From positions 1 to 39,130 of the IMG/VR virus record IMGVR_UViG_3300023223_000240: 39,130 nucleotides of DNA; one strand, written 5' to 3'. The stretch is from a virus. Position 1 is the stretch's first letter, and each line of letters starts with the position of its first letter. The notes under the pieces were generated by a model that was not told the DNA's origin, made no database searches, and worked only from the letters and a program-made list of their open reading frames with translations. Positions 8,427-35,972 of this stretch are shown piece by piece. Position numbers and translations under genes: made by a program.

Positions 8427-9188
8427 TTAAATTGCCTCTTGCAAAATATAATTCTCAGCATTTGTAAAAATAATATCGAACAAGAAATTCTGCATTTCAT
8501 AAGTATTGTCTTTAAGTTTATGGCGCAGATGTAAATATTCCTCAAATATTGTTGCTACGACTTGTTTTGTACCCATATGAAAACATCTTTTAGCAATGTA
8601 AATTGTGTTATCTTTAGCAAGCCCCATACATAAATTACCCAAATCTTCAACAACCATAACTGGGTATTTATTTATTTGGTAACCCATACGATCTAAAATA
8701 TGAAGAGATTTATCTAATTGTGCTTTTTGTACTATAGAAAGAGAGCATGGTGTTGGCTTTAGTCTGTCAGATAAATCCCGGCATTTCTTTAATGCAGACG
8801 CATTGATATTAGCAATACCATCTGAAACAATTTCCTCCACTACTTCTATAAATTCAGCTGTGGGGATTTCGGGACGATCACAATAATTTAATTTTTTTTC
8901 AAAATTATTTTCAGCGGCGGTTAAAGCTATTCTAATTAAATCTTTTTCTTTACATCCCAACCAAGCAGAAGCTATGCGTTCTCCGACTTCCCCACAGCTG
9001 AATTTATATTCTTCTTTTCCTAAAAATACGGAAACTTCTTGTTTCTCTCTTAATAATATTGCAATAGCGTATTTCAAGCCAGTGCCGAAAAATCCAATAG
9101 GGTTGTCATTTTCTTTGACAGAGACCCCAAAAGACCTAATAAAATCCAAATCAATAATACCGTTGTTTTTAAATATAATAGTTTTCAT
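8427..9188 (-). CDS. GHKL ATPase-like protein with EExxH tail, 253 aa
   Basis: Residues 31-43 (IGFFGTGLKYAIA) resemble the glycine-rich G2 box region of GHKL (gyrase B/Hsp90/histidine kinase) ATP-binding folds, as seen in a family of phage proteins with the pattern IG.FG.G.KYA.A.LLR. The start (FKNNGIIDLDFIRSFGVS) fits the first helix of that fold. Near the C-terminus, IFEEYLHLRHKLKDNTYEMQ (residues 214-233) carries an EExxH motif with the conserved D and Q that accompany it in related phage proteins; it resembles a degenerate metallopeptidase helix. Substrate and role are unknown. It starts one base after the upstream lipoprotein stop. Confidence 0.6.
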   Translation of the reverse strand: MKTIIFKNNGIIDLDFIRSFGVSVKENDNPIGFFGTGLKYAIAILLREKQEVSVFLGKEEYKFSCGEVGERIASAWLGCKEKDLIRIALTAAENNFEKKLNYCDRPEIPTAEFIEVVEEIVSDGIANINASALKKCRDLSDRLKPTPCSLSIVQKAQLDKSLHILDRMGYQINKYPVMVVEDLGNLCMGLAKDNTIYIAKRCFHMGTKQVVATIFEEYLHLRHKLKDNTYEMQNFLFDIIFTNAENYILQEAI

Positions 9189-10133: not shown

Positions 10134-10868
10134 ATGATTGGTTATGCCCGAACATCAAGGCCTGATCAAAATCTAAATATGCAACTAAATGCTTTGAGCA
10201 AGGCTGGCATAAAAGAAGATTTTATCTTTTCAGAAAAAATATCATCACTAGCCCCAAAGCGTCCACAATATGATTTAGCTTTAAAGCGTTGTCGCGCTGG
10301 TGATTGCCTTGTTGTTTATAAGCTTGATAGATTAGGGCGCTCTGCTATGGGCCTTATTAAAACCATTGAGGATTTAAAGAATAGGGGTGTTCATTTTAAG
10401 AGCCTTACAGAGACTTTTGACACAACAACCCCCATGGGTACTGTGATGTTTGGAATATGTGCGCTGTTCGCCCAATTAGAGCGAGATACGACCAGTGAAA
10501 GAACTGTGGATGGTATTGGTGCCGCTAAAGACGATGGGCGGTATCGCACAAGGTCTGTGACGTTTGATAGGGACCAATGGAACGGGATGCTTTTAGCTTG
10601 TAAAGAAGACCCTAATATTAAAGCTAGGCCGTTAGGTGTATTGGTTGGTCTTAAATACCAAACTGTTTACAGATATATGAAATTCCTAAAAATGGGAGAG
10701 CCTTTCTACACACGCTTTCCATTCCAGAAAAAATGGGACGTTCTTAAGGCTATCAAGCTTAAAGTTACCCGTGAAATTATTTACAGAGAGTTCGAAACAG
10801 ACAAGGAAACCGTTGATAGGTTTGTGTTTGAATGTGAACGCGATGATCAGGATTGGAAACTAAAATGA
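10134..10868 (+). CDS. Serine recombinase (resolvase/invertase family), 244 aa
   Basis: I choose the ATG at 10134, preceded by AAAGGAAAA, because the product then begins MIGYARTS as in the family; an in-frame GTG at 10107 would add nine residues. The catalytic domain is residues 1-130: nucleophile Ser8 in YARTS, KLDRLGRS (residues 63-70) with the active-site arginines, and LERDTTSERT (115-124) at the start of helix E. The C-terminal 100 residues include helix-turn-helix sequence (LGVLVGLKYQTVYRYMKFL) but are longer than in simple resolvases. Roles may include genome-dimer resolution, inversion or integration; no partner site was identified. It overlaps the next gene by 4 bp. Confidence 0.85.
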   Translation: MIGYARTSRPDQNLNMQLNALSKAGIKEDFIFSEKISSLAPKRPQYDLALKRCRAGDCLVVYKLDRLGRSAMGLIKTIEDLKNRGVHFKSLTETFDTTTPMGTVMFGICALFAQLERDTTSERTVDGIGAAKDDGRYRTRSVTFDRDQWNGMLLACKEDPNIKARPLGVLVGLKYQTVYRYMKFLKMGEPFYTRFPFQKKWDVLKAIKLKVTREIIYREFETDKETVDRFVFECERDDQDWKLK

Positions 10869-11524
10869 AAGTCCTAAGCTTATTTGATTTCTCTGGTGAT
10901 ATGGTTAAGCCTTGGCGTGACGCTGGTCATGAAGTTCTGACAGTAGATATTAAAGAACACCACCTCCAAGACCACCAAACATTAGACCTTTTTTGTCAAG
11001 CTCATAGGCGAATGTTAGTGCGCTGGAAGCCAGATATTATATTTTCATTCACACCCTGTACTGACTTAGCGGTAAGCGGTGCGGCACACTTCAAATCTAA
11101 GGGGGAGAGAAACCCTGACTTTCAAGATGATGCTATGTTCCTGTTTAGAATAGCCGATAAGATGGCAGATGAGTTGAATGTCCCTTATATGGTTGAAAAC
11201 CCTGTTTCTGTGGCCTCTACAATGTGGAGAAAGCCTAACTGTTATTTTCATCCTTATGAATATGGTGGCTACTTGCCGGAAGATGACGTCCACCCGCTGT
11301 ATCCTGAATACATCGGCCCCCGTGATGCTTACCCTAAGAAGACAGGTATTTGGTCAGGTAACGGCTTTATCATGCCAGAGAAGAAGCCTGTACATTGTCC
11401 CCCAGGGTATTCAGACCAACACAAAAAGCTTGGCGGTAAATCAGAGAGAACTAAAGAAATTCGCAGCATGACCCCTAGAGGTTTTGCACAAGCGGTATTT
11501 GAAGCTAATGAAAGGAATTTTTAA
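10865..11524 (+). CDS. DNA cytosine methyltransferase-like protein, 219 aa
   Basis: The start at 10865 forms an ATGA overlap with the recombinase stop; a TTG at 10853 is less likely. Motif order is that of C5-methyltransferases: SAM-binding FDFSG (residues 7-11) with VD at 27-28, TPCTDL at 63-68 with the Pro-Cys of motif IV, and ENP at 111-113 (motif VI, usually ENV). The target-recognition domain is short and the final helix SMTPRGFAQAV resembles motif X. The Thr before PC and the small size suggest a divergent phage family, so base specificity, or even activity on DNA, is uncertain. It may protect phage DNA from restriction. Confidence 0.7.
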   Translation: MKVLSLFDFSGDMVKPWRDAGHEVLTVDIKEHHLQDHQTLDLFCQAHRRMLVRWKPDIIFSFTPCTDLAVSGAAHFKSKGERNPDFQDDAMFLFRIADKMADELNVPYMVENPVSVASTMWRKPNCYFHPYEYGGYLPEDDVHPLYPEYIGPRDAYPKKTGIWSGNGFIMPEKKPVHCPPGYSDQHKKLGGKSERTKEIRSMTPRGFAQAVFEANERNF

Positions 11525-20951: not shown

Positions 20952-21151
20952 AACCCTTACCAGAAAGACGCGCAATCTTGGATGTGGATAACTTTATTGA
21001 ACAGAAGAAAAAAGAGGGTCTAACATCACACCAAGTTCTTGACGCACTGTATGTGGACGTTGACGGTTGGGAGATTGTTCGTAACGCCTTGATAGGCTAT
21101 CACATTGTTGAAAAGTTTGGGGATAACTATGAAAAACCTACCCAAGATTAA
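20945..21151 (+). CDS. Hypothetical protein, 68 aa
   Basis: A short helical protein (VDNFIEQKKKEGLTSHQVLD then ALYVDVDGWEIVRNALIGYH). Its end overlaps the start of the replication-type gene by 23 bp. No family recognised. Confidence 0.55.
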   Translation: MLKPLPERRAILDVDNFIEQKKKEGLTSHQVLDALYVDVDGWEIVRNALIGYHIVEKFGDNYEKPTQD

Positions 21152-21743
21152 AGGAAATATACCGCTGACAATAAACTTTGCTTTAGAACATGCAGGGTTA
21201 TTAATTAATGAGGTTGAGGCGGTTAAGTTCAACGAAATGCTCGTCAGTGTGTTTAATGCTGGTAAGAATGGTATTGTTGATCCTGATTTAGCCGCCAACT
21301 TTGAGGAATTTTACAAGTTGTATCCCCGTAAAATGTCCCCCAAAGCCGCACTCAAAGCATACAGGACCGCTATGAAAGAGGTCAACCATGAGACTATCAT
21401 GAAAGGATTACGGGCGCAACTCCCTGATTTAATGATTAAGTATAACACGGATAAGTCATGGGTAAAGCATCCTGAATTCTGGTTGAGTAAGGGTTGTTGG
21501 GCAGATGAAACAACAGATAAAGCCGCCCCTAATGATTTCATGACTGATGAGGAGATATTCAGTACAGAATGTGGTCAGAGAGCCTTAAAGAGGGGGTTTG
21601 GGTACGCTTTAAAGTGTTTTGTGGCCCAACATGGCAGATTACCCGATAAGGACGAAGGCAAAGCTATTGTGGATAAGCCGCTTAACAACAGTAAATTCAT
21701 GAAAGCTGAGAGTAAGAAATTAAATCATTATTTGAAGGATTAG
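21129..21743 (+). CDS. Replication-type protein (phage O/loader-like C-terminal domain), 204 aa
   Basis: I use the ATG at 21129; an upstream TTG-type start at 21105 is unlikely. FEEFYKLYPRKMSPKAALKA (about residues 58-77) and WVKHPEFWLSKGCWAD (about 108-123) form a domain typical of the C-terminal part of phage replication-initiator or helicase-loader proteins (FW..YP.K..K..A......KHP..WL....W). It sits in the early operon, but I see no DnaB or polymerase gene nearby, so the phage probably borrows the host machinery. Confidence 0.6.
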   Translation: MKNLPKIKGNIPLTINFALEHAGLLINEVEAVKFNEMLVSVFNAGKNGIVDPDLAANFEEFYKLYPRKMSPKAALKAYRTAMKEVNHETIMKGLRAQLPDLMIKYNTDKSWVKHPEFWLSKGCWADETTDKAAPNDFMTDEEIFSTECGQRALKRGFGYALKCFVAQHGRLPDKDEGKAIVDKPLNNSKFMKAESKKLNHYLKD

Positions 21744-22076: not shown

Positions 22077-22094
22077 CACTAGAAAGGATGAGTT

Positions 22095-22343
22095 ATGAAT
22101 ATGACAGAGAAAGTATCTAAGGCTATATGTAATGCATTAGGGGATGATTGGGACAATGCCCCTGATGAGAGCAGTAATGCTAATCTCTCTAAACAGGAAT
22201 ATAAAGAGTTTGCACAAGCAGCTATTAAAGCCATGAAAGAGCCTAGCGTCCAAATGATGAACGCAGGACATGCAGCCAAAGAAGATGGTGGTAATATGCG
22301 CTCTATTTGGAAAATGATGATATATAAAGCATTGGAGGAATGA
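22095..22343 (+). CDS. Small conserved phage protein, 82 aa
   Basis: The family pattern is KVSKAICNALGDDWDN, then EFAQAAIKAMKEPSVQMMNA and a final IWKMMIYKALEE. This is one of the very common helical proteins of phage accessory regions, function unknown. AAAGGATG lies upstream. Confidence 0.7.
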   Translation: MNMTEKVSKAICNALGDDWDNAPDESSNANLSKQEYKEFAQAAIKAMKEPSVQMMNAGHAAKEDGGNMRSIWKMMIYKALEE

Positions 22344-23029: not shown

Positions 23030-23037
23030 AATAATAT

Positions 23038-23066
23038 TTGACTTAGCTATATCGTGAGAGTATATT
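23038..23066 (+). promoter_or_regulatory. Strong sigma70-type promoter
   Basis: TTGACT at 23038-23043, a 17-bp spacer and TATATT at 23061-23066, with the start expected near 23073. The first gene downstream starts at 23536, leaving a leader of about 460 nt. Confidence 0.65.
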
Positions 23067-23097
23067 ACACATAAGGGCGTAAAAAGCTTTGGTTTGA

Positions 23098-23313
23098 TCA
23101 CCATTGTCGCTCGCTACCCAGACAGGGCCGCCCCTTTTCTTCCTTTTTAATCTGGGCAATAGTCTGGGTTAAATGCAAAATTATATCACACATAAACAGA
23201 AACGCCTTCTCCCCATTAAATTGGTGTGCATGGGCTTTTTTGCGTGTGGTCCGTTTCTTGGTAGGGTTAGCGGTCAAAAATCCACCATCGTTAAGCGAAA
23301 CAATAAAACGCAC
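23098..23313 (-). CDS. Possible small antisense gene, GTG start, 71 aa
   Basis: The product begins MRFIVSLNDGGFLTANPTKK; a pattern of the type 'FIV....GG.LTANP' occurs at the start of small phage proteins. The rest is basic with an apolar middle. It lies opposite the leader RNA, lacks a clear ribosome site and starts with GTG, so it may be an accident of the RNA sequence on the other strand. If real, it would be the only - strand gene between 18.6 and 39.1 kb. Confidence 0.35.
   Translation of the reverse strand: MRFIVSLNDGGFLTANPTKKRTTRKKAHAHQFNGEKAFLFMCDIILHLTQTIAQIKKEEKGRPCLGSERQW
23212..23241 (+). terminator. Weak candidate terminator in the leader
   Basis: CCCAT (23212-23216) pairs with ATGGG (23230-23234), with a 13-nt loop, followed after one C by six T (23236-23241). 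If used, the promoter at 23038 would give a short RNA of about 170 nt. The stem is weak and overlaps the possible - strand gene. Confidence 0.3.
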
Positions 23314-23334
23314 AAAATTCTAAGCAATGGTTTA

Positions 23335-23490
23335 CCTTTCCATCTTAGACCTATGGTAACATAGTAAAGTCTCACATAGTTCTTGTGGGATAAACTCCAC
23401 GGGAAAGGATACGGACTATAAACAGTATTCGGGGAATATGAGTACCTGCCAGAGATGGTTCCGTTAGTTACGGAGATGGTTGTTTACCAT
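23335..23490 (+). ncRNA. Densely structured RNA region (six helices)
   Basis: Perfect short helices follow one another. P1 CCTTTCC 23335-23341 with GGAAAGG 23402-23408 encloses P2 (AGAC+CTATG 23347-23355 with CATAG 23360-23364 and GTCT 23369-23372, GTAA loop) and P3 (GTGG 23385-23388 with CCAC 23397-23400), as a three-way junction. P4 is TATTC/GAATA (23426-23438), P5 TCCGT/ACGGA (23460-23474), and P6 ATGGT/ACCAT (23476-23490). No long reading frame covers it. It sits in the leader before the gene at 23536 and is a riboswitch-like, processing or independent RNA candidate; no known class is recognised. Confidence 0.5.
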
Positions 23491-23535
23491 AGGGGAAAAG
23501 GGAGAGGTGTGACTGAAACATGAAAGGACGATAAG

Positions 23536-23769
23536 ATGACAGTATCATTAGGACAAACAAATTTAAAGATTGTGCATTATTTGGCAGATAAGCATCCAGA
23601 GTTTATTTCACCTACAGAAATTGGGGTGGAAGTTGGAGGCAAAACCAAATCAGGTTTGACACGGCACAGTGCTTGGGCATCCCCGAAGCTTAAGAAGTTA
23701 GTACGTTGGGGATATGTTGTCAGAAATTCGCGCGGACACTATAAATTCTTACACCGTGAAGATATTTAA
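23536..23769 (+). CDS. Winged-helix-like DNA-binding protein, 77 aa
   Basis: AAAGGACG precedes the ATG. LKIVHYLADKHPEFISPTEI, then GLTRHSAWASPKLKKLVRWG and YVVRNSRGHYKF resemble a small winged helix: helix, helix-turn-helix, then a beta wing. It is the first gene after the structured leader and the start of a short regulatory operon. Family not certain. Confidence 0.55.
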   Translation: MTVSLGQTNLKIVHYLADKHPEFISPTEIGVEVGGKTKSGLTRHSAWASPKLKKLVRWGYVVRNSRGHYKFLHREDI

Positions 23770-23809
23770 CGGGTGGGACAACTGTAATTAGGGATACAAA
23801 GGAAACAAG

Positions 23810-24005: not shown

Positions 24006-24224
24006 ATGTATGATTTTATTGGTGAGTGTGAAAAAGAAATACAGAAGATAAAAGTTGATATGCTTGTGCGCGGTATAAATGTTGATAGTCCCCCGAAGAT
24101 GTACGGCGGGTGTATGGTTTCTCGTGGCTACCAAGAACAATTTCAAAATATGCGGTTTCAGGCCATGGAAAGAACGGTAGAACACCACGCTATCGAGACT
24201 TTAAATAAACATAACGACATATAA
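24006..24224 (+). CDS. Small protein of unknown function, 72 aa
   Basis: I take the ATG at 24006 after AAGGATAAAAGA; an in-frame extension to 23934 would run inside the previous gene. MYDFIGECEKEIQKIKVDML then GCMVSRGYQEQFQNM is helical, with two cysteines. No family recognised. Confidence 0.55.
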   Translation: MYDFIGECEKEIQKIKVDMLVRGINVDSPPKMYGGCMVSRGYQEQFQNMRFQAMERTVEHHAIETLNKHNDI

Positions 24225-24234
24225 AGGAACTAAG

Positions 24235-24570
24235 ATGACACCAAAGCAAAAACAATTATTTGATTATCTTTCATTTGAGATTGAATCAACAGGAATTTGC
24301 CCAAGCTTTGAGGAAATGATGCGAGCAATGGGCTTACACTCAAAGTCTGGTGTGCATAGATTGGTTAATGCTTTGAAGAAACAGGGCTTGATTGATTTCC
24401 TACCCAGAATGTCCAGAACCATAACAATAGTAAAACCCGACGAGATTAAGCCGGACAAGATAATTGAGATTTTAAAGGCCTTACAAGAGGATATATCAAG
24501 ATTGAGCGGTAAGTGTACGAATTTAGAGGAAAAGTTAATCAGGGCTGGAATTTGCCCATTTGAAGGATAG
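24235..24570 (+). CDS. LexA-type DNA-binding domain protein, 111 aa
   Basis: The first 65 residues follow the LexA N-terminal winged helix: MTPKQKQLFDYLSFEIESTG, CPSFEEMMRAMGLHSKSGVH, RLVNALKKQGLI, then R.ITIV. LexA has a self-cleaving peptidase after this domain. Here that part is absent and replaced by a 40-aa helical tail (IIEILKALQEDISRLSGKCT), so it cannot autocleave. It is likely a repressor or competitor at LexA-like operators. Confidence 0.75.
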   Translation: MTPKQKQLFDYLSFEIESTGICPSFEEMMRAMGLHSKSGVHRLVNALKKQGLIDFLPRMSRTITIVKPDEIKPDKIIEILKALQEDISRLSGKCTNLEEKLIRAGICPFEG

Positions 24571-25026: not shown

Positions 25027-25178
25027 ACCGTGAAGAAGCAAACAACATCATTAATACAAAATCTGTCTCTAGTCCTGAGTACAAAGAGGCACAAAGGTTT
25101 TTTAATTATGAAGCCCGAAAAATAACTGATGAGGCTGCGTTAAATTTAAATAGTTACCTAAAAACAACACGTTTATGA
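25023..25178 (+). CDS. Small helical protein, 51 aa
   Basis: ATG at 25023 in an ATGA overlap with GGAGGAAC upstream. MNREEANNIINTKSVSSPEY then KEAQRFFNYEARKITDEAAL is helical. Last gene before the late promoter region. No family. Confidence 0.55.
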   Translation: MNREEANNIINTKSVSSPEYKEAQRFFNYEARKITDEAALNLNSYLKTTRL

Positions 25179-25205
25179 ATTATTTGTTAAATATACCACA
25201 ATCAA

Positions 25206-25233
25206 TTGCACTAAAGTAAATATACTATATATT
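25206..25233 (+). promoter_or_regulatory. Candidate late promoter
   Basis: TTGCAC at 25206-25211, a 16-bp spacer and TATATT at 25228-25233, in the 143-bp gap before the first virion gene (25322). The leader of about 80 nt is untranslated. Confidence 0.5.
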
Positions 25234-25321
25234 CCTTATATGGGAGGTCTTGAGTTGTTTATTGGACAAGGCCCCCATCTTACCATCAAACACTCTTGGC
25301 TTTCCGTAACAGGAGAGTTTT

Positions 25322-25591
25322 ATGGCAGATGATGATTTTTATACAGTGACCAATGTGTGGACGGCTGTTGAGGCGAATGGCGCAGATATAACAAATGGTA
25401 CTTTCTCAGTTTTTTCCTTTTCAAACAAACAAGTAGGCTTTATAAAAGACACAATCGCCCCAACTGTTGAAAATGGTGTTGCTTTTATGGATGCTCCCAA
25501 AGATTCATTAAAATATACATTAGGTGCATCAGAATTTCTTTTTGCAAAATCTAATACAGGCACTGTTAAAATCGGGGTTATACCAGCATGA
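25322..25591 (+). CDS. Small virion-type protein, 89 aa
   Basis: Beta-rich and Thr/Ala/Asn-rich (ADITNGTFSVFSFSNKQVGF then KYTLGASEFLFAKSNTGTVK), with the look of a tail accessory protein. GGAGAG lies before the ATG. The stop overlaps the next gene's start, linking it to a tail-type protein. The specific role is not known. Confidence 0.55.
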   Translation: MADDDFYTVTNVWTAVEANGADITNGTFSVFSFSNKQVGFIKDTIAPTVENGVAFMDAPKDSLKYTLGASEFLFAKSNTGTVKIGVIPA

Positions 25592-27504: not shown

Positions 27505-27588
27505 ATGCCCAAACACACACCAGCAAAAAGACGAATAAATAGACAACGCAAACTTAAGTCGAAAAAACGCCGTATTAAGAAAAAGTAA
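27505..27588 (+). CDS. Very small, highly basic peptide, 27 aa
   Basis: AAGGAGAAAACA precedes ATG. The sequence MPKHTPAKRRINRQRKLKSK then KRRIKKK has over half Lys or Arg, and tiny basic peptides with a 'MP..TP..R..N' start are found after tail genes in other phages. It may bind nucleic acid. Called for its excellent ribosome site. Confidence 0.55.
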   Translation: MPKHTPAKRRINRQRKLKSKKRRIKKK

Positions 27589-27646: not shown

Positions 27647-27659
27647 TATGGGGAACATA

Positions 27660-29706: not shown

Positions 29707-30124
29707 ACTAACAGCTAAACAAGAGAAGTTCTGCCAAGAATATATAAAGTGCGGTAATCAATCCGAAGCTTATAGATTATCTTATGAGGTAGGGGAAAAC
29801 ACTAAAGATAAAACAGTTTGGGAAGCAGCTTGTAGGGTTATGGCTGACAGCAAGGTATCTGCAAGGGTGTTTGAATTACAAGAGTTAGCACAAGAGAGAA
29901 CCTTAACTACTGTTGATAGTCTAACAATAGAACTAAATGAAGCAAAAGATTTAGCTGTTAAAACTAATCAGCCTTCTGCAATGACAGGCGCAATAATGGG
30001 TAAGGCAAAACTACATGGATTAGATATTCAAAAGATAGACATGAATTTAAATGGTGTTTTAACCATGGATAGATTATCGGATGGCCGCAAACGTGCCGCA
30101 GAACGGAATAAGCCAGAGGATTAA
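29693..30124 (+). CDS. terS: Small terminase subunit (terminase_2-like), 143 aa
   Basis: TAKQEKFCQEYIKCGNQSEA followed by ACRVMADSKVSARVFELQEL is the N-terminal pattern of the terminase_2 family: 'T.kQe.F...Y....n...Ay..' and 'A...L....V......'. These proteins form rings that recognise phage DNA and start packaging with the large subunit. The second half is a helical oligomerisation region. It overlaps the terminase large gene by one base. Confidence 0.8.
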   Translation: MATAKLTAKQEKFCQEYIKCGNQSEAYRLSYEVGENTKDKTVWEAACRVMADSKVSARVFELQELAQERTLTTVDSLTIELNEAKDLAVKTNQPSAMTGAIMGKAKLHGLDIQKIDMNLNGVLTMDRLSDGRKRAAERNKPED

Positions 30125-31590
30125 TGATAAGCTTACAAGAATACGAAAAAGACCTAGCAGAACAAGTATCAGAGTTTTATGATGATCCTTTAGGGTTTGT
30201 ATTGTTTGCGTTTCCTTGGGGTGAAGGTGCATTAAAGGATATTGAAGGGCCTAGAAAATGGCAGTGGGAATTCCTGGAGGCATGGGGAGAAGAGATTAAA
30301 GATCGTGGGTTTGACGGTTTACACCCTGTAACACCTATTCAATTCAGTTTTGCTTCTGGTCACGGTATTGGTAAAAGCGCTTTGTCTGCAATGATAACAT
30401 TATTCATTATGTCCACAAGACCACATTCAAAAGGCGTTGTTACAGCCACGACAAGTCCACAACTTAAAACAAAGACATGGGCAGAGCTTGGTAAATGGCA
30501 CAAGATGTGTGTTACTTCGCACTGGTTTAAAATGAATTCAGGTCATGGTAATATGAATATCGTGCATGTACAGTTTCCTGAGACATGGCGGGTAGATGCT
30601 CAAACTTCTAAAGAAGAGAACAGTGAAAGCTTCGCTGGCTTACATGCGGCTAATTCTACCCCATGGTATTTGTTTGATGAGGCTAGTGGTGTTCCTGATA
30701 AGATTTATGAGGTTTCAGAGGGCGGCTTGACTGACGGAGAGGCCATGAGGTTTCTTTTTGGTAATCCCACAAAGAATACAGGTTTCTTTAAAAGAACATT
30801 CGGCTCACTACGTCATAGGTTTAAGACTATGCAGATTGATAGCCGTGAGGTTTATGGAACCAATAAAGAACTATTCAAATCATGGGCTGATGATTATGGT
30901 GAGGATAGTGATTTTTTTAGGATAAGGGTTAAGGGCCAATTCCCAAGGGCCAGTTCATTACAATTCATAGGAACGGATGTAGCAGAGGGAGCAGCACAAC
31001 GCGAAGAGTTTAGCGATAGTAAAGCTCCTATTGTTCTAGGTGTTGATGTTGCTAGATTTGGTGACGATGCTAGTGTAATTTATGTTAGGCAAGGTCGGGA
31101 TGCTAGATCACACGGGTATCAAATGTTCAGGGAATTAGATAGTATTCAACTAGCCGCTAGAGTAGCCGAGAAGATCAAAGAGTTAAAACCTGTTAAAGTA
31201 TTTGTTGATGGTACTGGTGGTTATGGTAGCGGTGTTGTTGACCAATTAAAGGCAAACGGGTATAGTAGCCTCGTTGAAGATGTTCAATTTGGCTCTAAAG
31301 CTCTTGATGCTGATATTTATTTTAATAAGCGCGCAGAGATGTACGGGTTAACAAAGAAGTTTTTGGAAACTGGATTAATCCCAGATGACCAGGATTTAAT
31401 AAATGATCTATGTGGTGTTGAGTATGGATTTGCTAGAGAGAATAAGATACAACTTGAGAAAAAAGAAGACATGAAGAAACGCGGGTTAGCCTCACCAGAT
31501 ATTGCGGACGCTTTAGCTTTAACATTTGCTTTCCCCGTTCCTTTAAGAAGATCAGTGCCGAGACAACAAAGAAAAGTATTTGTACCATGA
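30124..31590 (+). CDS. terL: Large terminase subunit, 488 aa
   Basis: The ATPase has Walker A SGHGIGKSA (residues 78-86), Walker B WYLFDEASG (181-189) with the catalytic Glu186, and a coupling motif LFGNPTKNTG (211-220). The nuclease domain shows VDVARFGDDASV (307-318) with Asp308, VFVDGTGGYG (359-368) with Asp362, and SPDIADALALTF (457-468) with Asp459/Asp462, the RNase H-fold metal sites. It pumps DNA into the prohead through the portal and cuts the concatemer. The length is typical of podovirus large terminases. Confidence 0.9.
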   Translation: MISLQEYEKDLAEQVSEFYDDPLGFVLFAFPWGEGALKDIEGPRKWQWEFLEAWGEEIKDRGFDGLHPVTPIQFSFASGHGIGKSALSAMITLFIMSTRPHSKGVVTATTSPQLKTKTWAELGKWHKMCVTSHWFKMNSGHGNMNIVHVQFPETWRVDAQTSKEENSESFAGLHAANSTPWYLFDEASGVPDKIYEVSEGGLTDGEAMRFLFGNPTKNTGFFKRTFGSLRHRFKTMQIDSREVYGTNKELFKSWADDYGEDSDFFRIRVKGQFPRASSLQFIGTDVAEGAAQREEFSDSKAPIVLGVDVARFGDDASVIYVRQGRDARSHGYQMFRELDSIQLAARVAEKIKELKPVKVFVDGTGGYGSGVVDQLKANGYSSLVEDVQFGSKALDADIYFNKRAEMYGLTKKFLETGLIPDDQDLINDLCGVEYGFARENKIQLEKKEDMKKRGLASPDIADALALTFAFPVPLRRSVPRQQRKVFVP

Positions 31591-33785
31591 CAATATCAGA
31601 CAGTGAGATTTTAAATTTAGTACGTGCGGAGGCAGCCAATACAATCGGAACCTCTGACAGTGATAGTCAATTAGGACAGGATAGATCAAAGTCCATTGAT
31701 TATTATCATGGTAAAATGACTGATGCTCCACACGAAGCTGGTTGGTCAGGTGTTACAACAAGAGACGCTTTCTTAACTGTTGAATCGGCCCTTCCAGATA
31801 TTATTGAGATATTTGAATCCACCGAAGACATCATGGAATTTCGCCCAGAGAGCGAAGAAGATGTAGACAAGGCGCGCCAAGAAACTGATGTTGTTAACTC
31901 TATTTATAACGTGGATAACCCCGGCTTTATCAATACATACACATATTTTAAAGATGCTTTAATGGTCAAGAACGGCTTTATGATGGCTTCTTGGGTTGAT
32001 AGTGAAGAAGACACAGAAGAACATTACTTTGAGCAATCAGATGAAGACTTAGCTTTGTTAGAGGCTGAGGAAGATATTGAAGTTATCGAGACCGAGACGG
32101 AAACAAAGACTATTGAACTAGGTGAGGGCTTGCCGGATGTCCAAGTTAAAACTCACATGGTTATTACCAAGAGAACCAAAGACACATCAAAAGTAGTTGT
32201 TCAAGCGTTGCCTCCTGAGGAAGTCGCTGTAAGCCGTGATACGATAGACCTGCAAAAAACTGCTTTAGTTAGACATGAACCCAAAACAACCACGCGGTCA
32301 GATTTGCTTGAGATGGGTATTGATGCTGATAAGGTCGGACAATTACGCAGGGTTGATGAACAAGATAGTGAAGAAGAGATTGCTCGGGACACATTGGACC
32401 AAGACGACATTAGAGATAGTTCTACCAATACACCAATGCAGAAGGTTGATATTGCTAACAATTATATTCGTATGGATGCTAGGGGTAACGGACGCGCCGA
32501 ACTATGGCAGGTAATGACAGGTAATGATGATAGTATCTTATTGTTTAAAACTAGGTTGTCTCGTGTTCCTATTTCCACATTAACACCCACACTTGAGCCC
32601 CACCAACTATTTGGTATTTCATTAATCGACCAAGTGATGGACTTACAAAGGATCACAACATTCTTTACAAGGGCTGCTATTGATAACGCTGCGGCATTGA
32701 ATAACCAGAGACCGATCACAAATATAGAGCAACTTGCAGATAGTACATTGGATGATATCCTAACCAATAGCCCTAGTTCTCCTATTTTGGTAAAAGGTGA
32801 CGCAAGGTCTGCTTTACAATATGCTCCTAACAATATTATTGCCGGTGATATGATTGGATTGATCGGGTACTTTGATAAGGTACGTGAGGAAAGAACAGGT
32901 ATTCAGCGTAGTGGTCAAGCTATGGACCCTGATGCAATTAGTAAAGACGTTACAGCCACAGAGTTTGCCGGACAACGTGCAGACGCCTTAAAAGCCATTA
33001 AGTTAATCGCTCGTATCTTTGCAGAAACAGGCATGAAAGATGTAATGATAAACATTCACCATGCTGCACAAGCGCACTCAGGTAATAAGAAGCGTTCCTT
33101 TAGATTAAATGGTAAGTTTGTCCAGGTTAACCCAAGGGAATGGAAAACACGTTCTGACATGACTGTTAATGTTGGCTTAGGCACTGGCACTAAAGCTGAG
33201 CAAATCACACAGCTAGGTAATATCTTAGTACAGCAAAAAGAAGCCTATGCACTTCAAGGTAATGTAGATGTACCGGGCGGTTTAGTTACACTCTCCCAAA
33301 TTAGGCACACTATGGGCAGGATTATCGAGTTGATGGGCTTCAAAGATGCTGATGCTTTCTTTAATGAGATTGATGACGAACAACAAGCTGCTAGAACAGA
33401 AGAAGCTGCTAATGAAGACGCACCACAAGACCCAGCTATACTTAAAATACAAACTGATGCTGCTAATGATGCAGAGAAAAACCAAATTGAGCGTGAGAAG
33501 AATATTATGAATGCTCAGATTGAACAGAGTGATAATGATTTAGATCGTCAAGTTAAGATATTCCAGATTGTCCAAGAGTTACAATTGAAAGCAGAAGGGC
33601 AAGATGCAGAGATTGAATTAAATACTGCTGCCTTAGCTTTAAAAACCCAACTAGAGAATGATAAGCTAGACCTAGCTGCCGAAACAACAGGTACACAGAT
33701 GGGTATTGATGCTGCTAAAGGTTTGGAAGATTTATCACTTGATGTAACACCAACGGTCAGAGTAGGAGGCGATATTGCCGGATAA
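31587..33785 (+). CDS. Portal protein (P22-like, long form), 732 aa
   Basis: The 12-mer vertex through which DNA enters. N-terminal IDYYHGKMTDAPHEAGWSGV, then LTVESALPDIIEIFESTEDI and a VKNGFMMASW stretch are the landmarks of long portals of P22-type podoviruses. The middle has VDIANNYIRMDARGNG and PHQLFGISLIDQVMDLQRI, both typical, and the C-terminal third is a long coiled-coil region (IQTDAANDAEKNQIEREKNI). It follows the terminase by an ATGA overlap, as usual. Confidence 0.85.
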   Translation: MTISDSEILNLVRAEAANTIGTSDSDSQLGQDRSKSIDYYHGKMTDAPHEAGWSGVTTRDAFLTVESALPDIIEIFESTEDIMEFRPESEEDVDKARQETDVVNSIYNVDNPGFINTYTYFKDALMVKNGFMMASWVDSEEDTEEHYFEQSDEDLALLEAEEDIEVIETETETKTIELGEGLPDVQVKTHMVITKRTKDTSKVVVQALPPEEVAVSRDTIDLQKTALVRHEPKTTTRSDLLEMGIDADKVGQLRRVDEQDSEEEIARDTLDQDDIRDSSTNTPMQKVDIANNYIRMDARGNGRAELWQVMTGNDDSILLFKTRLSRVPISTLTPTLEPHQLFGISLIDQVMDLQRITTFFTRAAIDNAAALNNQRPITNIEQLADSTLDDILTNSPSSPILVKGDARSALQYAPNNIIAGDMIGLIGYFDKVREERTGIQRSGQAMDPDAISKDVTATEFAGQRADALKAIKLIARIFAETGMKDVMINIHHAAQAHSGNKKRSFRLNGKFVQVNPREWKTRSDMTVNVGLGTGTKAEQITQLGNILVQQKEAYALQGNVDVPGGLVTLSQIRHTMGRIIELMGFKDADAFFNEIDDEQQAARTEEAANEDAPQDPAILKIQTDAANDAEKNQIEREKNIMNAQIEQSDNDLDRQVKIFQIVQELQLKAEGQDAEIELNTAALALKTQLENDKLDLAAETTGTQMGIDAAKGLEDLSLDVTPTVRVGGDIAG

Positions 33786-35003: not shown

Positions 35004-35972
35004 ATGGCTGTCGAAACAAACACTAACTTAACTTTTGCCACAATTGGCATCAGGGAAGATTTGGCTGAGAAGATTTATCTTGTCGCCGCAGAAGATACCC
35101 CGTTTACTTCAAACATCGGTACAACTTCCGCAACCGCAACTTTCCACGAATGGCAAACCCACGCTTTAGCAAGTGCTATTGACACTAACGCTGTGTTAGA
35201 GGGTGATGACTCCACAATTGATGCTGCTACTCGTACGGTTCGTGTAGGTAACCGCACACAGATTTCAGATAAAACTGCTTCTGTGTCAGGAACCAACCAG
35301 GCTGTAGATCAAGCAGGTCGTTCAAGTGAAATGGCTTTCCAACTTGTAACTAAAGGTACTGAGCTTGCTCGTGATATTGAGAAGCAAATGCTTTCCAATA
35401 AAGCGTCTGTTGCTGGTACTGCAACCTTGGCCCGTCAATCCGCCGGTATGCTAGCTTGGCTAGAAACTAATACGGAACGTGGTGTAGGTGGTTCTGATGG
35501 TGGTTTTAGTTCTGGTGTAGTATCTGCCGCAACAAACGGCACACTACGCAACTTCACCGAAACATTATTGAAAGCTGCTCAACAATCAGCATTTAGTAAT
35601 GGTGGTAAACCAACGCAGCTTTATATGGATGGTGTCTTAAAACAAACCTTCTCAACATTTGGCGGGATTTCCGCTACTCGTGTTAATACAACACAAGATG
35701 CACAAGCAATGACATCTATCATTGGTGCTGCTGATGTATATGTTGGTGACTTTGGTGTTCTGACAGCAATCCCACATCCTTACGGCACAACTGGCCGTGA
35801 TGTGATCGGTGTTGATACATCAATGGTTGCTAAATCTATTCTACGCGCAATGGCTTCAATGGAGCTTGCTAAGAATGGTGATGCTGAGCGCCGCTTGCTT
35901 AACGAAGAGTATTGCTTAGAAGTTAAAAACGAGGCTGCACACTTTGTTGTAGCAGATGTTGATGCCCCATAA
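35004..35972 (+). CDS. Major capsid protein, DUF5309/SU10-type, 322 aa
   Basis: The first 130 residues contain LAEKIYLVAAEDTPFTSNIG, then HEWQTHALASAIDTNAVLEG, NRTQISDKTASVSGTNQAVD and ARDIEKQMLSNKASVAGTA, which match the DUF5309 type of HK97-fold capsid protein from podo- and siphoviruses. The region ARQSAGMLAWLETN is also characteristic. It is a single-protein shell building block. A UUCG hairpin follows at 35979. Confidence 0.85.
   Translation: MAVETNTNLTFATIGIREDLAEKIYLVAAEDTPFTSNIGTTSATATFHEWQTHALASAIDTNAVLEGDDSTIDAATRTVRVGNRTQISDKTASVSGTNQAVDQAGRSSEMAFQLVTKGTELARDIEKQMLSNKASVAGTATLARQSAGMLAWLETNTERGVGGSDGGFSSGVVSAATNGTLRNFTETLLKAAQQSAFSNGGKPTQLYMDGVLKQTFSTFGGISATRVNTTQDAQAMTSIIGAADVYVGDFGVLTAIPHPYGTTGRDVIGVDTSMVAKSILRAMASMELAKNGDAERRLLNEEYCLEVKNEAAHFVVADVDAP

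Follow-up and report, generated by a model that had tools for sequence, protein, structure and literature searches.

Very few RNA elements with a role in transcription control or as modules have been described in phages, and their short length and fast change make further examples hard to spot. The put elements of phage HK022 (putL and putR) are protein-independent processive antitermination RNAs that suppress pausing and termination through the beta' zinc-binding domain. The EAR element of Bacillus exopolysaccharide operons is a gene-independent structured RNA found in or before a long operon, and the lambda pR' leader, with tR' and Q, lies between the replication and late genes and contains no ORF. 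GOLLD and ROOL are large phage noncoding RNAs that were orphans without known function when described and that have Rfam families. The put RNA is about 70 nt long with two stem-loops, and transcription reaches putR some 270 nt after its start site (PMC9378689).

The locus described here lies in virus record IMGVR_UViG_3300023223_000240, and the window that we analyzed is this entire record of 39,130 bases. The RNA sits in a 506-base non-coding gap (23030-23535), with the replication genes before it and, after it, more rightward genes, a set of small ones that leads on to the virion genes. Besides the genes listed below, the window encodes an Erf-type annealing protein, a RuvC-like resolvase, a serine recombinase, and many small unknowns. 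The nearest terminases, at 75-77% identity, are found in viral contig L001 and in two genome bins (L107 and L108) labelled Emcibacteraceae and Alphaproteobacteria, which makes an alphaproteobacterial host likely.

Among the known systems, put serves as the precedent: both it and the RNA here are structured nascent phage RNAs heading a long rightward operon independently of the genes below, and putR's ~270 nt from the start compares with ~260 nt here, provided that 23038-23066 is the promoter. Unlike put, the RNA in our window is 186 nt long with basal helices of 13 and 10 bp and four branches, and the likeness is one of analogy, not membership. EAR belongs to Bacillota and differs in structure (compared by description only), with no Rfam match at the phage region. 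The lambda pR' leader shares the genome place, the position behind a promoter-like site, and the absence of an ORF, whereas at our locus no Q-like gene was recognized beside the RNA and the conserved part is a structured RNA rather than a Q-binding site in promoter DNA, the promoter-like site itself being unconserved. GOLLD and ROOL are likewise orphan structured phage RNAs, but they are far larger and, unlike the RNA here, are matched by Rfam. The features are as follows, where L160 is a second phage contig carrying a homologue.

21105-21743: replication-initiation-like protein
23038-23066, + strand: promoter-like TTGACT-17-TATATT, identified by consensus match alone; unconserved in L160
23290-23538, + strand: 249-base conserved module that matches L160 at 90% identity and closes with the next gene's start codon
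23290-23328, + strand: A-rich conserved lead-in with little structure, AAACAATAAAACGCACAAAATTCTAAGC
23329-23514, + strand: predicted closed structured RNA domain, 186 nt
23329-23341, + strand: 5' strand of the outer helix, pairing with 23501-23514 (bulged base 23510; 13 bp including G-U)
23342-23349, + strand: 5' side of the internal loop, AUCUUAGA (AUCAUAGA in L160)
23350-23359, + strand: 5' strand of the inner closing helix, CCUAUGGUAA, perfect 10 bp with 23484-23493
23368-23417, + strand: long arm
23368-23372/23413-23417, + strand: lower stem of the long arm
23373-23379/23406-23412, + strand: 7x7 internal loop of the long arm
23380-23389/23396-23405, + strand: upper stem of the long arm, loop AUAAAC
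23426-23444, + strand: hairpin 2, UAUUCG/UGAGUA or alternatively UAUUC-GGG-GAAUA
23448-23459, + strand: hairpin 3, GCCA-GAGA-UGGU
23460-23474, + strand: hairpin 4, UCCGU-UAGUU-ACGGA
23480-23483, + strand: unpaired variable junction segment, net 5-6 bases longer in L160
23484-23493, + strand: 3' strand of the inner closing helix, UUACCAUAGG
23494-23500, + strand: 3' side of the internal loop, GGAAAAG
23501-23514, + strand: 3' strand of the outer helix
23515-23538, + strand: unpaired tail with Shine-Dalgarno (SD) GAAAGG at 23522-23527 and start codon at 23536-23538
24235-24570: LexA-type DNA-binding domain (PF01726, E 1e-14), 111 residues, peptidase part absent
30124-31590: terminase large subunit
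31587-33785: portal protein
35004-35972: major head protein

The preliminary description had placed a densely folded RNA region at 23335-23490, and this stretch does fold better than shuffled sequence on the + strand (z -2.4; 2/200 shuffles). Its borders, however, cut through the structure, as folding with flanks adds an outer 13-bp helix between 23329-23341 and 23501-23514. With the borders set at 23329-23514, the + strand reaches a minimum free energy of -62.0 against -46.9 +/- 4.1 for shuffles, lower than all 200 of them, although the z-score of -3.7 is flattered by borders that were picked after the fold was seen. The minus strand of the domain gives z -1.6; folded as DNA, the + strand gives -1.5 and the other strand -1.8. 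In an unbiased sliding scan of 150-nt windows on both strands (n=1560), 23301-23450 and 23351-23500 on the + strand (z -3.1) rank 14th and 16th; the folding energy here is unusual, yet not unique within this genome, and because of these ranks it is by itself no proof of function. The strongest local folding in the window is found elsewhere, at 8851-9000 (z -5.1 on the + strand and -4.4 on the - strand), inside the minus-strand ORF 8427-9188.

The predicted domain consists of two stacked basal helices, a long arm, and three hairpins, an architecture for which we see moderate support. The strongest inverted repeat of the region, CCTATGGTAA at 23350-23359 with TTACCATAGG at 23484-23493, supplies ten perfect pairs; pair probabilities in both basal helices are mostly near 1, and G-U pairs account for 11 of the 56 pairs in the window fold. 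This layout departs from the six helices drawn earlier, of which the hairpins are present as sequence while the 13-bp and 10-bp closing helices had been overlooked. In particular, the three-way junction proposed there is not supported: its 7-bp closing helix (23335-23341/23402-23408) is an exact inverted repeat, but enforcing it costs 18 kcal/mol (-44.0 vs -62.0), and of the seven pairs L160 breaks two, 23335-23408 and 23340-23403. The small GUAA-loop hairpin is a possible alternative fold of 23350-23359, whereas its strand CCUAUGGUAACAUAG forms the 5' half of the 10-bp helix with UUACCAUAGG in the predicted structure. The direct repeat GAGATGGTT is present, at 23452 and 23473.

Scanning viral contigs for the long arm's apical part, TGTGGGATAAACTCCACR, returned one contig with a true homologue, L160, whose positions 10998-11188 are matched by the single-sequence model R1 with 191.6 bits (E about 5e-47). 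DNA identity is 90% across 23290-23538, with no confident alignment beyond either side, so that the module is flanked by non-homologous sequence; elsewhere, aligned stretches of the two phages are mostly 65-83% identical. Within the module, the 24-base tail (23515-23538) is 100% identical. The module occupies the equivalent place in both phages, between a replication-initiation-like gene (21105-21743 in the window and 8873-9577 in L160) and a gene of the 25322 type, and it is followed in both by small genes and then the virion block. The promoter-like site upstream is not shared by L160, and the 77-residue ORF at 23536 is swapped there for an unrelated ORF of 88 residues. Since flanks and downstream gene are unrelated, the RNA is an independent module that is kept while its neighbors are exchanged, and the specific partnership with a "regulatory operon" at 23536 that had been proposed falls away. 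The PF01726 protein at 24235-24570, within the small-gene set behind the RNA, is likely a regulator. In L001, which shares the late genes and whose terminase is 75% identical, the corresponding place holds other genes and gave no RNA match.

Several further observations concern the surroundings of the module in the two phages. Short gene junctions at 23764-23790, 24198-24238, and 22078-22098, each reaching from a stop codon to the following SD or start, are near-identical in L160 while the adjoining genes are unrelated, a pattern suggestive of gene cassettes being exchanged at boundaries that are conserved. TTTAACGGGTGGGACAACTGTAA follows the first gene in both phages, and the conserved 27-base patch after that gene (23764-23790) occurs once in the window. 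A second conserved intergenic stretch, 25149-25325 (76% with L160), carries a promoter-like TTGCAC-16-TATATT that is possibly the promoter of the virion genes. At 27505-27588 lies an unlisted 27-residue peptide, MPKHTPAKRRINRQRKLKSKKRRIKKK, which is 59% Lys/Arg/His, is conserved in L160 (13633) and L001 (6827, 36 residues), and could bind RNA or DNA; a terminator-like hairpin with a T run stands after it, ahead of the gene at 27648. Finally, the L160 intergenic region that holds the homologue also contains, just upstream of it, a tRNA-like sequence at 10623-10712 that scores 32.2 bits, above the Rfam tRNA threshold. Viewed over 10576-10712 (GTAGCTCAGTTGGTAGAGC ... GGTTCAAATCC), it has an over-long anticodon loop and a poor T stem, fails ARAGORN, and overlaps weakly with the Y-RNA-like YrlA model (19.7 bits, under the cut-off). 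No such sequence was found in the window.

The changes between the two phages are consistent with the predicted fold. L160 departs from the window at eleven of the domain's 186 positions. In the fold predicted for the window sequence by itself, seven of these are unpaired and two others hit end pairs, both missing from the two-sequence consensus. Positions 23382 and 23403, which are partners in the long arm, have changed together from C-G to A-U, a compensatory change, and neither phage loses any of the 53 consensus pairs. When the changes are placed at random on like bases, equally few broken pairs arise in 3.8% of trials and a compensated pair turns up in 8.6%, with the two coinciding in 0.8% (P = 0.04 for stem avoidance alone and 0.008 jointly). 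The covariation count carries no statistical weight because there are just two sequences, 90% alike, and a row-shuffling control yields one covarying pair half the time. Folded alone, the L160 domain forms the same basal helices (z -4.1 on the + strand), although a good fold is likewise predicted for its minus strand (z -3.0). Overall, the homologue lends the fold moderate support, which comes from the placement of the changes.

Searches for relatives place the domain outside the described families. Rfam 15 at gathering thresholds, with its riboswitches, group I introns, ribozymes, and phage RNAs, gave no match over the whole window, a permissive scan of 23030-23540 returned one chance lncRNA match (E 0.85) outside the domain, and neither ARAGORN nor Rfam found a tRNA or tmRNA at the domain. 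Named phages and plasmids held nothing similar by blastn. Among viral contigs, the pattern AAGGATACN5ATAAACAG has 25 matches, none similar outside the pattern; ACCTGCCAGAGATGGTT was found in L160 and five contigs without further similarity, and ATAGGGGAAAAGGGAG in L160 and seven others, where the model did not match the pattern site significantly (a weak 56-nt match in L174, away from the pattern with E 0.11, was disregarded). The RNA models R1 and R2 found nothing further in the contig loci they were run against. Roughly 1,450 proteobacterial genomes were also covered, taken from the order, class, and phylum of an Emcibacteraceae bin or from the class to which a Paraglaciecola bin belongs; under strict filters and without a positive control, the covariance-model search of these genomes was empty. 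BLAST against 32 genomes of the host-like family gave just two sub-threshold 23-base matches, and no copy was seen among about 1,490 bacterial genomes in all. As for the neighboring proteins, those of the ORFs at 23536 and 22595 have no relatives in viral contigs, while the 25322 protein has relatives only in L001 and L160. A protein-coding block can be rejected, in keeping with the earlier reading that no protein frame explains the region: all six frames contain stops, 1-base indels separate the homologues at two places, and the longer insertion (net 5-6 bases) does not combine with these to a multiple of three. The domain is a candidate new RNA family known from two phages, although structured RNAs in phage leaders are as such a known kind. 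With the Rfam result, the conserved homologue, the RNA-strand-specific folding, and the structure-consistent changes, the preliminary description was right that a real, unrecognized RNA of an undescribed class lies in this leader, and wrong in the structure it drew and the operon it linked to it.

What such an RNA might do is best approached through the outputs that a leader could have. A leader sensing a ligand or protein and switching translation or termination, as a riboswitch or autoregulatory leader would and as had been suggested earlier, is favored by an SD directly downstream, 7 nt from the outer helix, by CCUUUC in the 5' strand of that helix, which is able to pair with the SD GAAAGG, and by CCUAUG, which has two mutually exclusive pairings. 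We nevertheless consider it improbable. The SD is predicted to be open in both phages whether the outer helix is formed or blocked, which rules out SD sequestration for the predicted ensemble, and a 6-nt anti-SD match of this kind arises in 17% of shuffles. No conserved terminator was found inside or right after the domain, the sole terminator-like hairpin (23459-23475) having lost its T-rich tail in L160. Because neither conserved expression platform of a riboswitch or attenuator, terminator or SD-sequestering helix, is visible, an ordinary riboswitch is argued against, and a switch dedicated to the first gene is unlikely since that gene differs between the phages. Pairing over the start codon (CATCTTA/TAAGATG, 23341-23347/23532-23538) was also considered and is weakened by an uncompensated U -> A in L160. 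A role as a 5' stabilizer that shields the operon mRNA from RNases or keeps the leader open for ribosomes would suit a stable closed structure adjoining an open ribosome-binding site regardless of gene identity, but the many unchanged loop positions go beyond the needs of a mere stabilizing hairpin, and we give this reading a slightly smaller chance still.

The readings that dispense with a leader differ widely in their chances. A stand-alone RNA acting in trans as a decoy, sponge, or RNP component, with host RNases cutting at the outer helix, ranks close behind the elongation model set out below and is nearly as likely, though still doubtful: the domain is self-contained and closed with both ends paired, its flanks and neighboring genes are not conserved, and the tRNA-like sequence in L160 may mark the region as a spot for RNA genes. 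It lacks, however, a conserved promoter or terminator of its own, and a released RNA would have no need for full identity along the single-stranded tail that takes in the SD and the start codon. A replication origin or single-strand initiation site in the DNA would account for a conserved non-coding block that adjoins the replication module and has an A-rich flank (23290-23328); the RNA-specific folding signal, with its share of G-U pairs and its weak z-scores as DNA, and the absence of a cumulative GC-skew turn near 23.3 kb make this very unlikely. Least probable of all is chance folding of recently shared functionless DNA. Other 150-nt windows, mostly genic, have better z-scores, and two sequences so alike leave little room for covariation, but the block stands at 90% identity against the lower values typical elsewhere, its flanks are not confidently alignable, and the changes avoid stems with or without compensation counted.

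The reading that we tentatively prefer, at a probability of roughly 0.36, is an orphan structured leader RNA that acts on its own transcript, most plausibly on elongation in the manner of put. The RNA would be transcribed from an upstream promoter and would fold during transcription into a closed domain of ~186 nt, leaving the ribosome-binding site of the next gene open. Because the same module precedes unrelated first genes in two phages, it would most likely act in cis on the whole transcript rather than as a one-gene switch. The nascent RNA may stay with RNA polymerase or recruit a factor, with the elongation complex as the target, and transcription would then continue through the long downstream operon by put-like processive antitermination. 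A nascent RNA acting on RNA polymerase fits the gene independence, the lack of a visible output device, and the place at the head of the rightward block behind the replication genes. Against this elongation model stand the small basis of two homologues, 90% alike, with one covarying pair, and the example of L001, which does without the RNA at the corresponding place. The promoter is a further difficulty: the TTGACT-17-TATATT site, previously called strong, is present with 10/12 consensus matches and lies about 260 nt upstream of the domain, but such sites number three against 2.4 expected in shuffles, and it is not conserved in L160. More specifically, we could be dealing with a new phage RNA class, in two related environmental phages whose hosts are probably Alphaproteobacteria, which alone modifies the elongation complex at the early-to-late junction and replaces a Q- or N-type protein, although this fuller proposal seems unlikely at present.

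Two sequences are too few to settle function. What the comparison provides is a gene-independent RNA module with clean bounds and base-level definition, for which a homologue and a covariance model are at hand, and it gives a handle for finding further members in environmental viromes. If the fuller proposal is true, the module would be the second protein-free antitermination RNA in phages, structurally unrelated to the first.
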